Below, one piece after another: positions 3,012-13,494 of a stretch of DNA of 23,992 bases. This DNA is from a virus. The DNA lies in the IMG/VR virus record IMGVR_UViG_3300033148_002665, positions 1 to 23,992 of that record; one strand, written 5' to 3'. How positions within the stretch are numbered: the first letter of the stretch is position 1; the number at the start of each line of letters is the position of its first letter. The position numbers were made by a program, and so were the translations under genes. Under the pieces are notes generated by a model. That model saw only the letters and a list, made by a program, of their open reading frames with translations. It was not told where the DNA came from and made no database searches.

Positions 3012-3039
3012 TTGACAAATCCGCATAAGCGGGTAAAGT
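3012..3039 (+). promoter_or_regulatory. Sigma70-type promoter for the replication leader
   Basis: TTGACA at 3012-3017 and TAAAGT at 3034-3039 are separated by 16 bp. The spacer contains the dyad CCGC-ATAA-GCGG (3021-3032), a possible operator. The predicted start is near 3046, just before the structured leader begins. Confidence 0.65.
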
Positions 3040-3045
3040 GGAGAC

Positions 3046-3151
3046 TAATGCCGAAGATGAAGTTACATTGTTACAAATCGTTTTCCTCCCAGCAACCGGT
3101 GTCATTCCAGAATGACTTTATCTTTGGCAGGACCGGTTCGCTGGGTTTTTT
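3046..3151 (+). ncRNA. Structured leader or small RNA with pseudoknot and terminator
   Basis: From the predicted transcript start the RNA has two interleaved helices. Bases 3049-3061 pair with 3117-3129 (13 bp, two of them G-U), and 3088-3100 pair with 3132-3145 (13 bp, one bulged C at 3139). A third hairpin, GTCATT/AATGAC (3101-3106 with 3111-3116), fits between them without conflict. Six T residues (3146-3151) follow. All three helices can coexist as a pseudoknotted RNA of about 106 nt. It may be a free small RNA or an attenuator of the replication genes. I know of no named family that it matches. Confidence 0.6.
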
Positions 3152-3161
3152 AACAGGTTGA
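3048..3161 (+). CDS. Possible 37-residue leader peptide through the terminator
   Basis: ATG 3048 lies about two bases from the predicted transcript start and opens a 37-codon frame that crosses the whole pseudoknot and terminator. It stops at 3159-3161, three bases before the initiator ATG. There is no SD site, so translation would be leaderless. The peptide begins MPKMKLHCYKSF and has no known motif. The open frame could be chance, but its extent and the near-abutting stop and start suggest coupling. Confidence 0.3.
   Translation: MPKMKLHCYKSFSSQQPVSFQNDFIFGRTGSLGFLTG
3088..3151 (+). terminator. Intrinsic terminator upstream of the initiator gene
   Basis: CCCAGC-AACCGGT (3088-3100) pairs with ACCGGTT-C-GCTGGG (3132-3145), followed by six T. 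The stem is long and G+C rich. Because it lies between the promoter and the replication genes, it must be read through, or else the genes need upstream transcription. Confidence 0.75.
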
Positions 3162-3164
3162 CCA

Positions 3165-3929
3165 ATGGATACATTTATTATGGCTAAAAGAAACCAGAAA
3201 GCCGACGAACTTGACACAGATATGCCAGCAAGTCATTTGCTCAAAATAATAGCAAGCCGAGCAAGACGAACAAACGAATTTAACGCTCACAACTTAAAAA
3301 TAGGTGAGGCTTTTTTGGGCGACTTTCGCAATTATGGTATGTCTGAACAGCAGTATCGAACAGCAAAAGAGAAGTTAAATAGGTGGGGTTTTGCAAGTTT
3401 CCGGGCAACGAACAAAGGAACTATCGCAACTCTATTGAATGACGACATTTACGACATAAACCTAAAACAAAGCAACAGGCCAGCAACAGGCCAGCAACAG
3501 GCCAGCAACAGGCCAGCAACGACTAACAATAAAGATAATAATGTTAATAATGATAATAAGAAAGAATATAGTCCAAACTCTGACGAGTTCAGACTGTCTC
3601 TCTTGCTACTTAATTTAATCCTTGAAAGAAAACCCGACTATAAAAAGCCTGATTTGCAAAAATGGGCAGTAGAGATTGGACGCATGATTAGAATTGACCG
3701 CCGCAAGCCCGACAAGATTGAGCAGGTTATCCGTTTCGCGCAAGCAGATACCGGAAACGGAAACTGGAACGGCTGGCAAAACAATATTTTGTCGACCAGC
3801 AAACTTAGGGGTAAATTTGACAAGTTAGAATTGGCTATTGGAAAAAAAGACCCGTATAAGCCTAAGTATTACACCGTACCGGAAAACGAACGAAAGGCTT
3901 TTGAAAAGGCTTCGAAGGAGATGTTATGA
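3165..3929 (+). CDS. Replication initiator / helicase-loader-like protein with internal origin
   Basis: The protein has 254 residues. Residues 20-90 look like a winged-helix DNA-binding domain (RNYGMSEQQYRTAKEKLNRW is the likely recognition segment). Residues 103-119 are encoded by iterons, and residues 119-138 are an Asn/Asp/Lys linker. Residues 140-220 (LLNLILERKPDYKKPDLQKW, then FAQADTGNGNWNGW) resemble the C-terminal region of phage O-like or DnaT/DnaD-like proteins that contact the helicase. DnaB follows directly with an ATGA overlap. The layout matches lambda O. The start at 3165 has a weak AGG; ATG 3180 is an alternative. Confidence 0.72.
   Translation: MDTFIMAKRNQKADELDTDMPASHLLKIIASRARRTNEFNAHNLKIGEAFLGDFRNYGMSEQQYRTAKEKLNRWGFASFRATNKGTIATLLNDDIYDINLKQSNRPATGQQQASNRPATTNNKDNNVNNDNKKEYSPNSDEFRLSLLLLNLILERKPDYKKPDLQKWAVEIGRMIRIDRRKPDKIEQVIRFAQADTGNGNWNGWQNNILSTSKLRGKFDKLELAIGKKDPYKPKYYTVPENERKAFEKASKEML
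3471..3520 (+). repeat. Four 11-bp iterons inside the initiator gene
   Basis: AGCAACAGGCC is repeated perfectly at 3471-3481, 3482-3492, 3493-3503 and 3504-3514, with six bases of a fifth unit (to 3520). Since 11 is not a multiple of 3, the protein reads through all three frames, so conservation is at the DNA level rather than the peptide level. One unit is about one helical turn, so bound proteins would line up on one face. This is the likely initiator-binding part of an origin. Confidence 0.75.
3521..3575 (+). other. A+T-rich tract next to iterons, candidate unwinding element
   Basis: About 50 bp, roughly 80% A+T by eye, with repeated AATAAT-type runs (GATAATAATGTTAATAATGA), immediately downstream of the iterons and within the linker-coding region. 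In lambda the A+T-rich stretch beside the O-binding iterons is where the origin melts. It is also simply an Asn/Lys-coding linker. Confidence 0.55.
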
Positions 3930-5270: not shown

Positions 5271-5447
5271 ATGAGTAAGCCTAAATGTTATTGTTGTGAT
5301 AAAACTGACGTGGCGTTTTGGGTACGCAAGGCCGGCCCTTTAAGAAACAGATATATATGTTGCAAGTGTTATGAAGATTATTACAAAAAAGAAAGATTAC
5401 AATTAAGGAGACAAAGGAATGTTAGTATTAAGAAGGGCAATAGATGA
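5271..5447 (+). CDS. Small cysteine-rich zinc-binding protein
   Basis: The protein has 58 residues. KCYCCDKT (Cys6, Cys8, Cys9) and [11 protein letters not shown] (Cys30, Cys31, Cys33) form a treble-knuckle or zinc-ribbon pattern, followed by a basic tail. SD AGGAAG lies 5' of ATG 5271. The last 29 bases overlap csrA in another frame, so the two are probably translationally coupled. No named family. Confidence 0.6.
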
Positions 5448-5598
5448 ATCAATTATGATAGGTGATAGTATTGAAGTAGTTATCGTTGATGTAAAAGGTG
5501 GCAAAGTTCGTTTGGGTATCTCTGCTCCGAAAAATATCGCGGTACACAGGCAAGAAGTTTACGAAGCTATTCAGAAAGAACAGGAAGGCGGTAAATGA
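5419..5598 (+). CDS. csrA: Carbon storage regulator CsrA
   Basis: The protein has 59 residues, the family's usual size. [20 protein letters not shown], then [22 protein letters not shown], matches CsrA throughout: the Leu-x-L-x-R start, the I-G-D turn, V-R-L-G-I, A-P, and the RNA-contacting V-H-R at residues 42-44. CsrA dimers bind GGA-containing hairpins in mRNA leaders, often over the ribosome site, to block or stabilise translation. SD AAGGAG (5405-5410) lies inside the previous gene. The product could redirect host metabolism or time phage genes; the target is inference. Confidence 0.93.
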
Positions 5599-11329: not shown

Positions 11330-11357
11330 TTGACAAATTTCGGGAAATTGCTATAAT
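11330..11357 (+). promoter_or_regulatory. Plus-strand promoter with dyad in its spacer
   Basis: TTGACA (11330-11335), 16-bp spacer, TATAAT (11352-11357). The spacer contains the dyad AATTTC-GG-GAAATT (11336-11349), ideally placed for a repressor to block RNA polymerase. The start near 11364 gives about a 20-nt leader with SD AAGGA. Confidence 0.78.
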
Positions 11358-11384: not shown

Positions 11385-11573
11385 ATGGGCGAAACATCGC
11401 AGGAATTAAAAATTTCGTTCAATGTTGTGGCGACTGACCACGAAGATTTTGAGTGTGAACTGGAAGAATTTTTAAGTTTACGAGGTTTTCGGTTTATTTT
11501 AAGCGGTGGTGGCCCGACTTCTGAGCGGAACATGCTTTTTGAGCGCGATCTTTGTGCAGGCGTGGACAAATGA
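11385..11573 (+). CDS. Small acidic protein, first gene of the rightward block
   Basis: The protein has 62 residues, acidic, with a beta-alpha-beta pattern (LKISFNVVATDHEDFECELE, then GFRFILSGGG). It follows the promoter at 11330 and AAGGAATAGATA. The next gene has a similar opening (RDITVTINHFCPEE) and overlaps by ATGA, so they may be distant copies. Function is unknown; its position fits a regulator. Confidence 0.65.
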   Translation: MGETSQELKISFNVVATDHEDFECELEEFLSLRGFRFILSGGGPTSERNMLFERDLCAGVDK

Positions 11574-11782
11574 CATTATCACAACAAAGAGATATTACAG
11601 TAACAATAAACCATTTTTGTCCTGAAGAATATAGCATTGATTTTGTTAGCCAAATAGAGGAGTCTGTCGATGAAGCTTTGCGGCATATTGGTTTTACTCG
11701 TTCTTCGACAGAGAAAGGGGACAAAGGGGACAAAGGGGACAAGGTGGAATTAGTTTATTATCAATTTGGCAGGGTTTTATGA
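11570..11782 (+). CDS. Small acidic protein with Gly-Asp-Lys triplet repeats
   Basis: The protein has 70 residues from ATG 11570, overlapping the previous stop. The N-terminal 45 residues (DITVTINHFCPEEYSIDFVS and onward) resemble its neighbour's fold. They are followed by GDKGDKGDK, encoded by three tandem 9-bp units (GGGGACAAA), then VELVYYQFGRVL. Copy number of such units can vary by slippage. Function is unknown. Confidence 0.62.
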   Translation: MTLSQQRDITVTINHFCPEEYSIDFVSQIEESVDEALRHIGFTRSSTEKGDKGDKGDKVELVYYQFGRVL

Positions 11783-11783
11783 A

Positions 11784-11798
11784 TAAAAAGGTAGGAAT
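11784..11798 (+). repeat. 15-bp repeat TAAAAAGGTAGGAAT, copy 1
   Basis: Perfect match to 12123-12137. Here it lies just upstream of the extended -10 promoter at 11801-11809, where a -35 element would sit. Confidence 0.55.
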
Positions 11799-11800
11799 AT

Positions 11801-11809
11801 TGTTATAAT
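11801..11809 (+). promoter_or_regulatory. Extended -10 promoter (TGTTATAAT)
   Basis: A perfect TATAAT with TG one base upstream; no good -35, as expected for extended -10 promoters. The predicted start near 11816 is five bases before ATG 11821. Confidence 0.55.
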
Positions 11810-11820
11810 GCATTTTATAA

Positions 11821-11904
11821 ATGGAAGGACTATTAAACATGGATATAACAGGTCGGGCATTGTACGTTCTGACAGACAACAATGTTCGGCCTGTTTTTTT
11901 ATAG
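11821..11904 (+). CDS. Possible leader peptide (27 or 21 residues) spanning a terminator
   Basis: ATG 11821 and in-frame ATG 11839 (with GGAAGGAC upstream) open a frame that ends at 11902-11904 and covers the complete terminator. The peptide (MEGLLNMDITGRALYVLTDN and onward) has no known motif. If translated, ribosomes would open the terminator stem. Confidence 0.35.
   Translation: MEGLLNMDITGRALYVLTDNNVRPVFL
11848..11900 (+). terminator. Strong intrinsic terminator with complementary downstream arm
   Basis: A 16-bp stem without mismatch (three G-U pairs) joins 11848-11863 to 11879-11894 and is followed by seven T (11894-11900). The loop segment 11863-11875 is perfectly complementary (13 bp) to 11906-11918 just past the T-run, so two interleaved inverted repeats exist. 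The gene at 11938 lies beyond. Confidence 0.8.
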
Positions 11905-11937
11905 ACTGTCAGAACGTATAAAGGTAGTGGATAAGCT

Positions 11938-12066
11938 ATGACGACAAGAGGACACAAAGAGAATTCCGGGGCTAAATACTACGGAATGTCCAGTCAAAGG
12001 GGTAATCAACGACTCGGTCATAGAATCCGTCCCGAATATATAGAGCTTACAATAAAAAAACCTTAA
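11938..12066 (+). CDS. Small basic protein after the leader terminator
   Basis: The protein has 42 residues (MTTRGHKENSGAKYYGMSSQ and onward), basic, with a C-terminal segment RPEYIELTIKKP resembling strands of small DNA-binding repressors, but too short to assign. SD AAAGGT lies about ten bases upstream. Expression would need read-through of the terminator. Confidence 0.45.
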   Translation: MTTRGHKENSGAKYYGMSSQRGNQRLGHRIRPEYIELTIKKP

Positions 12067-12122
12067 GCTTTGACAGATAGTGGGTAAAACCCCATTAAAC
12101 TCTTTATAGATTAAGAAGGAAG

Positions 12123-12137
12123 TAAAAAGGTAGGAAT
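12123..12137 (+). repeat. 15-bp repeat TAAAAAGGTAGGAAT, copy 2
   Basis: Perfect copy of 11784-11798, just upstream of the inverted repeat at 12143-12202. No promoter follows it here. Confidence 0.55.
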
Positions 12138-12142
12138 TAAGC

Positions 12143-12202
12143 TCAAAGCCCAAAAAAAACAAACATACAAATATATAAAGTTTTAAGGGCTTTGGGCTTT
12201 GA
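12143..12202 (+). other. Inverted repeat with 12-bp arms
   Basis: TCAAAGCCCAAA (12143-12154) pairs perfectly with TTTGGGCTTTGA (12191-12202) around a 36-nt A+T-rich loop; TTT follows. A second GGGCTTT at 12187-12193 offers an alternative partner. It may end the transcript from 11938 or act as a binding site. Bases 12067-12217 hold no convincing gene. Confidence 0.5.
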
Positions 12203-12217
12203 TTTAGGAAACAGAAA

Positions 12218-12355
12218 GTGTTTAAGTTAAGCGACCACGTTGCTGGAAAGACTACTCGATTTTCAGGATTGAGCCAGGCGGGTGAAAAGTGGGACGACGT
12301 TAAAAAGCACAAATTCGGGTTAAAACCAGAAAAACAACTGCAGCTTACAGAATAG
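12218..12355 (+). CDS. Possible small protein with GTG start
   Basis: The protein has 45 residues (MFKLSDHVAGKTTRFSGLSQ and onward), from GTG 12218 with AGGAAA about eight bases upstream. The composition is protein-like and basic, but no homolog is recognised. It is uncertain whether this is a gene, although it is the best frame in the 490-base gap before 12557. Confidence 0.4.
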   Translation: MFKLSDHVAGKTTRFSGLSQAGEKWDDVKKHKFGLKPEKQLQLTE

Positions 12356-13287: not shown

Positions 13288-13315
13288 TTGACAATATCTT
13301 AACACATGGTATAAT
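13288..13315 (+). promoter_or_regulatory. Perfect-hexamer promoter overlapping a small gene start
   Basis: TTGACA (13288-13293), 16-bp spacer, TATAAT (13310-13315). The predicted start near 13322 falls just inside the frame that begins at ATG 13318, so it may serve the late block from 13533 rather than that ATG. Confidence 0.75.
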
Positions 13316-13317
13316 GT

Positions 13318-13494
13318 ATGAGTAAGATAGCAGTAGAGACGTTGTTGAGTCGGATAGAGAACGTGATAGACATTCATCGTGTGGCTGGGGACGTTACTAA
13401 CGCGGAGATAATAGGTCTATTAGAGATGGTTAAGTTAGCTATATACCAAGATACTATTGGCGATATTGGTGATATTGGCGATATTGAGGCGTAA
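13318..13494 (+). CDS. Small helical protein with Gly-Asp-Ile triplets
   Basis: The protein has 58 residues (MSKIAVETLLSRIENVIDIH, then GDVTNAEIIGLLEMVKLAIY), clearly protein-like and helical, ending in GDIGDIGDIEA encoded by tandem 9-bp repeats (GATATTGGC/T). No SD precedes ATG 13318 and the promoter's -10 lies two bases upstream, so either it is read from an upstream transcript or the true start differs. Function is unknown. Confidence 0.55.
   Translation: MSKIAVETLLSRIENVIDIHRVAGDVTNAEIIGLLEMVKLAIYQDTIGDIGDIGDIEA

Follow-up and report, generated by a model that had tools for sequence, protein, structure and literature searches.

Three described systems come closest to the locus reported here, namely the C4 RNA of P1 and P7 (RF01695), IsrK of the Salmonella prophage Gifsy-1, and the CI RNA of P4. 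C4, a short structured RNA, is encoded on the same strand as its own target and lies directly 5' of it. In P1 (NC_005856), the annotation places C4 at 48343-48419, with its targets at 48423-48429 (a2) and 48452-48459 (b2) and the start of icd at 48470; the complements of these targets are found at C4 positions 51 and 37, with position 37 in a hairpin loop. IsrK is a terminated RNA whose read-through form holds a 45-codon frame, orf45 (PMC4825925). The short form of IsrK pairs with and activates the long form, and this terminated/read-through logic is experimental (PMC4825925). The P4 CI RNA pairs with sites on both of its own sides and causes termination (PMC4825925).

The locus described here belongs to an uncultured phage and lies in a virus record of 23,992 bases, analyzed over its whole length (the window) and probably a fragment. 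It resembles C4, IsrK and CI in logic at most and is not a member of any of these groups. We consider it plausible that this is a regulatory RNA with two stems that exclude one another. Its features are as follows:

11847-11895, + strand: stem A:A', 17 bp, an intrinsic-terminator-like hairpin with a T-run at 11894-11900
11863-11875, + strand: B, loop segment TACGTTCTGACAG, with pairing that extends from 11860
11906-11918, + strand: B', CTGTCAGAACGTA, exact reverse complement of B, with pairing that extends to 11921
11938-12066, + strand: 42-codon frame with a basic product, 3' of B', of uncertain coding status

Stem A:A' joins 11847-11863 to 11879-11895 and includes three G-U pairs, which confine it to RNA of the + strand. 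Folded alone, it reaches -24.7 kcal/mol. The preliminary description had given the stem as 16 bp followed by seven T; the hairpin and the seven T are present, and the stem is one pair longer. Since a stable stem is followed directly by a T-run, 11847-11900 has the form of an intrinsic (Rho-independent) terminator. The leader RNA from the predicted start to the T-run (11816-11901) gave a fold z-score of -4.7, and none of 200 shuffles was equally stable. The hairpin probably ends one short RNA near 11900.

The complementarity of 13 loop bases to the sequence just 3' of the T-run, noted previously, proved to be exact and extends with its flanks to 16 bp (11860-11875/11906-11921), with a duplex energy of -25.0 kcal/mol. 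As an alternative stem, these 16 bp fold at -22.5 kcal/mol, nearly as stable as A:A'. We infer that the two stems cannot both form fully because they share bases and the 13 bp of loop pairing leave no linker. B:B' is the sole perfect inverted repeat of at least 13 bp with a gap of at most 60 in the window, and none occurred in 30 dinucleotide shuffles. When the minimum is lowered to 11 bp at the same gap, one further repeat appears in the window (arms at 12143 and 12191):

12143-12202, + strand: second inverted repeat, TCAAAGCCCAAA/TTTGGGCTTTGA

An exact 15-bp copy of TAAAAAGGTAGGAAT lies ahead of this second repeat; TAAAAAGGTAGGAAT also precedes the -10 hexamer at 11804. Complementarity between the hairpin interior and the next 60 bases was also compared among 167 terminator-like hairpins in 270 kb (the window, related phage loci, other loci, P4 and half of P1), and it reaches 13 bases here and at most 8 in all others. 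Absent from shuffles and unique among these hairpins, the interleaved inverted repeats are therefore genuine and statistically outstanding, far beyond chance. Within this phage, B has no strong complement other than B', which pairs at -23.0 kcal/mol; the next + strand site in the window reaches -19.2 kcal/mol. A trans target of B at the start of 19007 gave a duplex of -17.5 kcal/mol; since -17 kcal/mol is attained in 12 of the 1197 stretches sampled, this candidate was dropped.

The likeness to C4 lies in the layout. Complementary bases sit in loops, and the target begins shortly past the RNA end (3 nt in P1, and 5 nt after the predicted end here) and precedes a small ORF, which is icd in P1 and here the 42-codon frame that begins 19 nt after B'. 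C4 differs in that it pairs with its targets over two short stretches (7 nt and 8 nt), has an additional upstream a1/b1 target set, and has an annotated 3' end without a T-run, whereas here one 13-nt pair occupies the loop of an intrinsic terminator and an antirepressor gene was not seen. RF01695 gave no match to this locus at the gathering score or at E up to 5, whereas the P1 control scored 68.8 bits. Likewise, no match to the upstream a1/b1 target copies (RF03163) was found, and the complement to the hairpin interior upstream of the hairpin never exceeds 6 bases.

With IsrK, the element shares a Rho-independent terminator, a small frame beyond it, complementarity to downstream RNA and two exclusive structures, with read-through being predicted here; the terminator and the small frame are present, and the promoter is weak. 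In IsrK, the pairing covers about 30 nt and joins the middle of the RNA to the 3' end of orf45, whereas here the terminator loop would pair 5' of the frame. IsrK itself gave no sequence match, and no known Rfam family matched the locus at the gathering score. Nor was the translationally coupled, antirepressor-like downstream gene of the IsrK type found at the next ORFs, 12218 and 12557, which are coding-like and gave no antirepressor match. The seqA-seqC immunity of P4 offers the third parallel, as the CI RNA is complementary to a site that follows it closely on its own transcript and is tied to premature termination (PMC4825925); P4 differs in that it has targets on both sides and a CI RNA made by processing, whereas here the downstream target alone was found.

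Homologues of the element were sought at several levels. Blastn against phages and plasmids returned no DNA homologue, the exact B-B' pattern had no match in viral and genome contigs, and no relatives of the neighboring proteins 11552 and 12557 were found in viral contigs. In the terminase-related phages L002-L013, the late genes are conserved and this segment is not. In phages whose terminases are 58-64% identical, the sequence upstream of the late genes differs, and the element was seen in none of the terminase-related phages that cover this region. Neither a homologue nor covariation was thus obtained from the viral contigs, phages, plasmids and genomes searched. A search of the whole window against Rfam at the gathering score gave no family besides tRNA, and at E up to 5 the region 11700-12300 gave weak unrelated matches alone. 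For the 42-codon product, tblastn, Pfam, PHROGs and two degenerate patterns yielded no relatives. The codon usage of its frame is ambiguous, and the Shine-Dalgarno sequence (AAGG) lies at a poor spacing, about 13 nt from the ATG.

Transcription could reach the hairpin from two places, which are given here with their surroundings:

11330-11357, + strand: consensus sigma-70-type promoter of the upstream operon (TTGACA, 16-bp spacer, TATAAT, extended -10)
11385-11782, + strand: two small overlapping ORFs of 62 and 76 codons, with coding-like codon usage and no family
11784-11798, + strand: TAAAAAGGTAGGAAT, exact 15-bp direct repeat of 12123-12137, directly 5' of the -10
11801-11809, + strand: extended -10 (TG-T-TATAAT) with no -35, predicted transcript start about 11816

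The promoter of the leader, TGTTATAAT, is an extended -10 alone (hexamer at 11804-11809), without a -35; it takes 15th place among the + strand sites, equal to one that falls within a coding gene. The promoter at 11330-11357 is far better and is among the two best in the ranking, and transcripts from it run into the hairpin too. Because stem A:A' lies about 65 bp past the last stop codon of the 11385-11782 operon, both promoters are expected to give an RNA that ends near 11900. From the hairpin to 12340, the promoter search turned up no good candidate, and the coding-like ORFs 12218 and 12557 therefore seem to depend on read-through. A search for AAAAAGGTAGGAAT beside TATAAT in viral contigs gave three matches, two of them the same coding sequence and one isolated and promoter-like, which is near chance, and the candidate was set aside. 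In an unrelated viral contig (L017, 5718-5743), AAAAAGGTAGGAAT is followed by TATAAT, which may be chance.

Our best reading of the locus, held tentatively, is an antisense regulator of read-through; an ordinary operon terminator beside a mutational inverted copy comes close behind in likelihood. It is hypothesized that transcription from 11330-11357, and perhaps also from the extended -10 at 11804, would mostly halt at A:A' near 11900, giving an RNA whose 3' end exposes loop B. A minority of polymerases would read through and produce an RNA with B' just 5' of the 42-codon frame and the genes beyond. The terminated RNA would then act as an antisense RNA, with B pairing to B' of the read-through RNA and altering translation or decay of the downstream frame. 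Within a single read-through RNA, B:B' would be an alternative stem exclusive with A:A'. Termination, read-through, and the trans pairing with its direction are what we infer from this arrangement. Since B' lies downstream of the terminator, it cannot be a classical antiterminator, and antisense or read-through logic is the better fit.

In the modelled read-through RNA, a weak stem hides the ATG. Opening the start region costs 8.5 kcal/mol with B' free and 5.5 kcal/mol with B' occupied, a 3 kcal/mol shift that is within model error. These modelled energies weakly favor activation, as in IsrK. By analogy with C4, the position of B' before the start codon would equally permit repression. The accessibility difference is too small to fix the sign of regulation.

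Should the pairing be functional, the locus would be a compact regulator of the phage, with a single hairpin serving both as the transcription stop and as the source of the antisense loop directed at the read-through RNA. Its signature, a terminator loop complementary to the bases just past the T-run, is easily searched and was found in one of the 167 terminators; a survey of phage genomes for it could tell whether such devices form a class.

A real possibility, ranked second, is that the hairpin may simply be the ordinary intrinsic terminator of the 11385-11782 operon, and that B' is a functionless inverted duplication made by a template switch near the hairpin during replication. Template switching at hairpins yields short perfect inverted copies, which is what B' would be. 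The short distance of the stem from the operon's last stop and the perfect consensus of the operon promoter agree with a plain terminator, as do the absence of the element from relatives and the chance-like nature of the frame over the stem. What speaks against this reading is that B' sits exactly in the first bases after the T-run and complements the loop, not the stem; an equally stable, switch-like second fold would have to be an accident.

A bolder form of the antisense reading, which we consider unlikely, holds that the transcription unit counts itself. The terminator hairpin that makes the short RNA would double as the antisense effector, directed at RNA from polymerases that did not stop, so that the downstream phage gene would respond to the proportion of terminated to read-through RNA. 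If true, the stop signal and effector would be united in one hairpin, a layout distinct from C4, CI and IsrK.

Translation-coupled attenuation was considered in view of two small frames over the hairpin:

11821-11904, + strand: 27-codon ATG frame spanning the hairpin, compatible with chance
11839-11904, + strand: inner 21-codon ATG frame, with GGAAGGA 9 nt before the ATG at 11839

Ribosomes on the 21-codon frame would open A:A' and allow read-through, B:B' would form behind them and set the exposure of the next start, and CsrA might block the frame. The frame does cover the whole stem and end just past the T-run, its ATG is preceded by GGAAGGA, and the phage encodes a CsrA (5419-5598; Pfam PF02599, E = 4.9e-24). 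We nevertheless regard this mechanism as improbable. The frames enclosing the terminator, as first described, exist as sequence, but an ATG frame over the hairpin arises in 53% of shuffles when the 5' part alone is shuffled and the hairpin is fixed (19% when the whole leader is shuffled). Leader-peptide attenuation was rejected because the upstream complement to the A arms, the would-be antiterminator partner, never exceeds 7 bases and the small frame over the stem contains no regulatory codon run. CsrA control of the leader was also rejected, as CsrA-like consensus sites (9/12 or better, + strand) occur at chance frequency, with 14 in the sequence, including one at 11835, vs 13.2 in shuffles.

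It is very improbable that the 23-nt inverted repeat at 11860-11882/11899-11921 (83%) serves at the DNA level as a protein-binding or recombination site, for although its B:B' core is perfect on DNA, whereas A:A' has G-U pairs, the repeat coincides precisely with the terminator loop and the edge of the T-run, has no second copy in the window, and has a spacer of less than 40 bp, which is too short for known DNA invertases.

The preliminary description had also drawn a parallel to a leader at 3046 and proposed that the two loci share a regulatory device. At 3012-3165, a promoter and a terminator-like hairpin lie directly 5' of genes for a helicase loader (DnaD-like) and a helicase (DnaB-like), possibly an attenuated replication operon. 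The loop of the 3046 terminator has complementarity of at most 6 bases upstream and 8 downstream, and alignment of the two leaders scored 25, no better than shuffles (mean 22.6, 95% point 30). With neither loop complementarity nor sequence similarity at 3046, the parallel is not confirmed and the shared device is unsupported. Of the original proposal as a whole, the element with two exclusive stems is the part that we retain as plausible; the shared device is not supported, the ORF over the terminator is compatible with chance, and CsrA sites are not enriched.

The window contains two perfect promoters, 11330-11357 and 13288-13315, each with full consensus hexamers, a 16-bp spacer and an extended -10. 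At 13288-13315, an ATG lies a few bases past the -10, which implies a leaderless mRNA. Close to the C-terminus, the small ORF 3' of each promoter has a tandem Gly-Asp repeat, at 11711-11746 (GDKGDKGDK) for the promoter at 11330 and at 13458-13491 (GDIGDIGDI) for the one at 13288.
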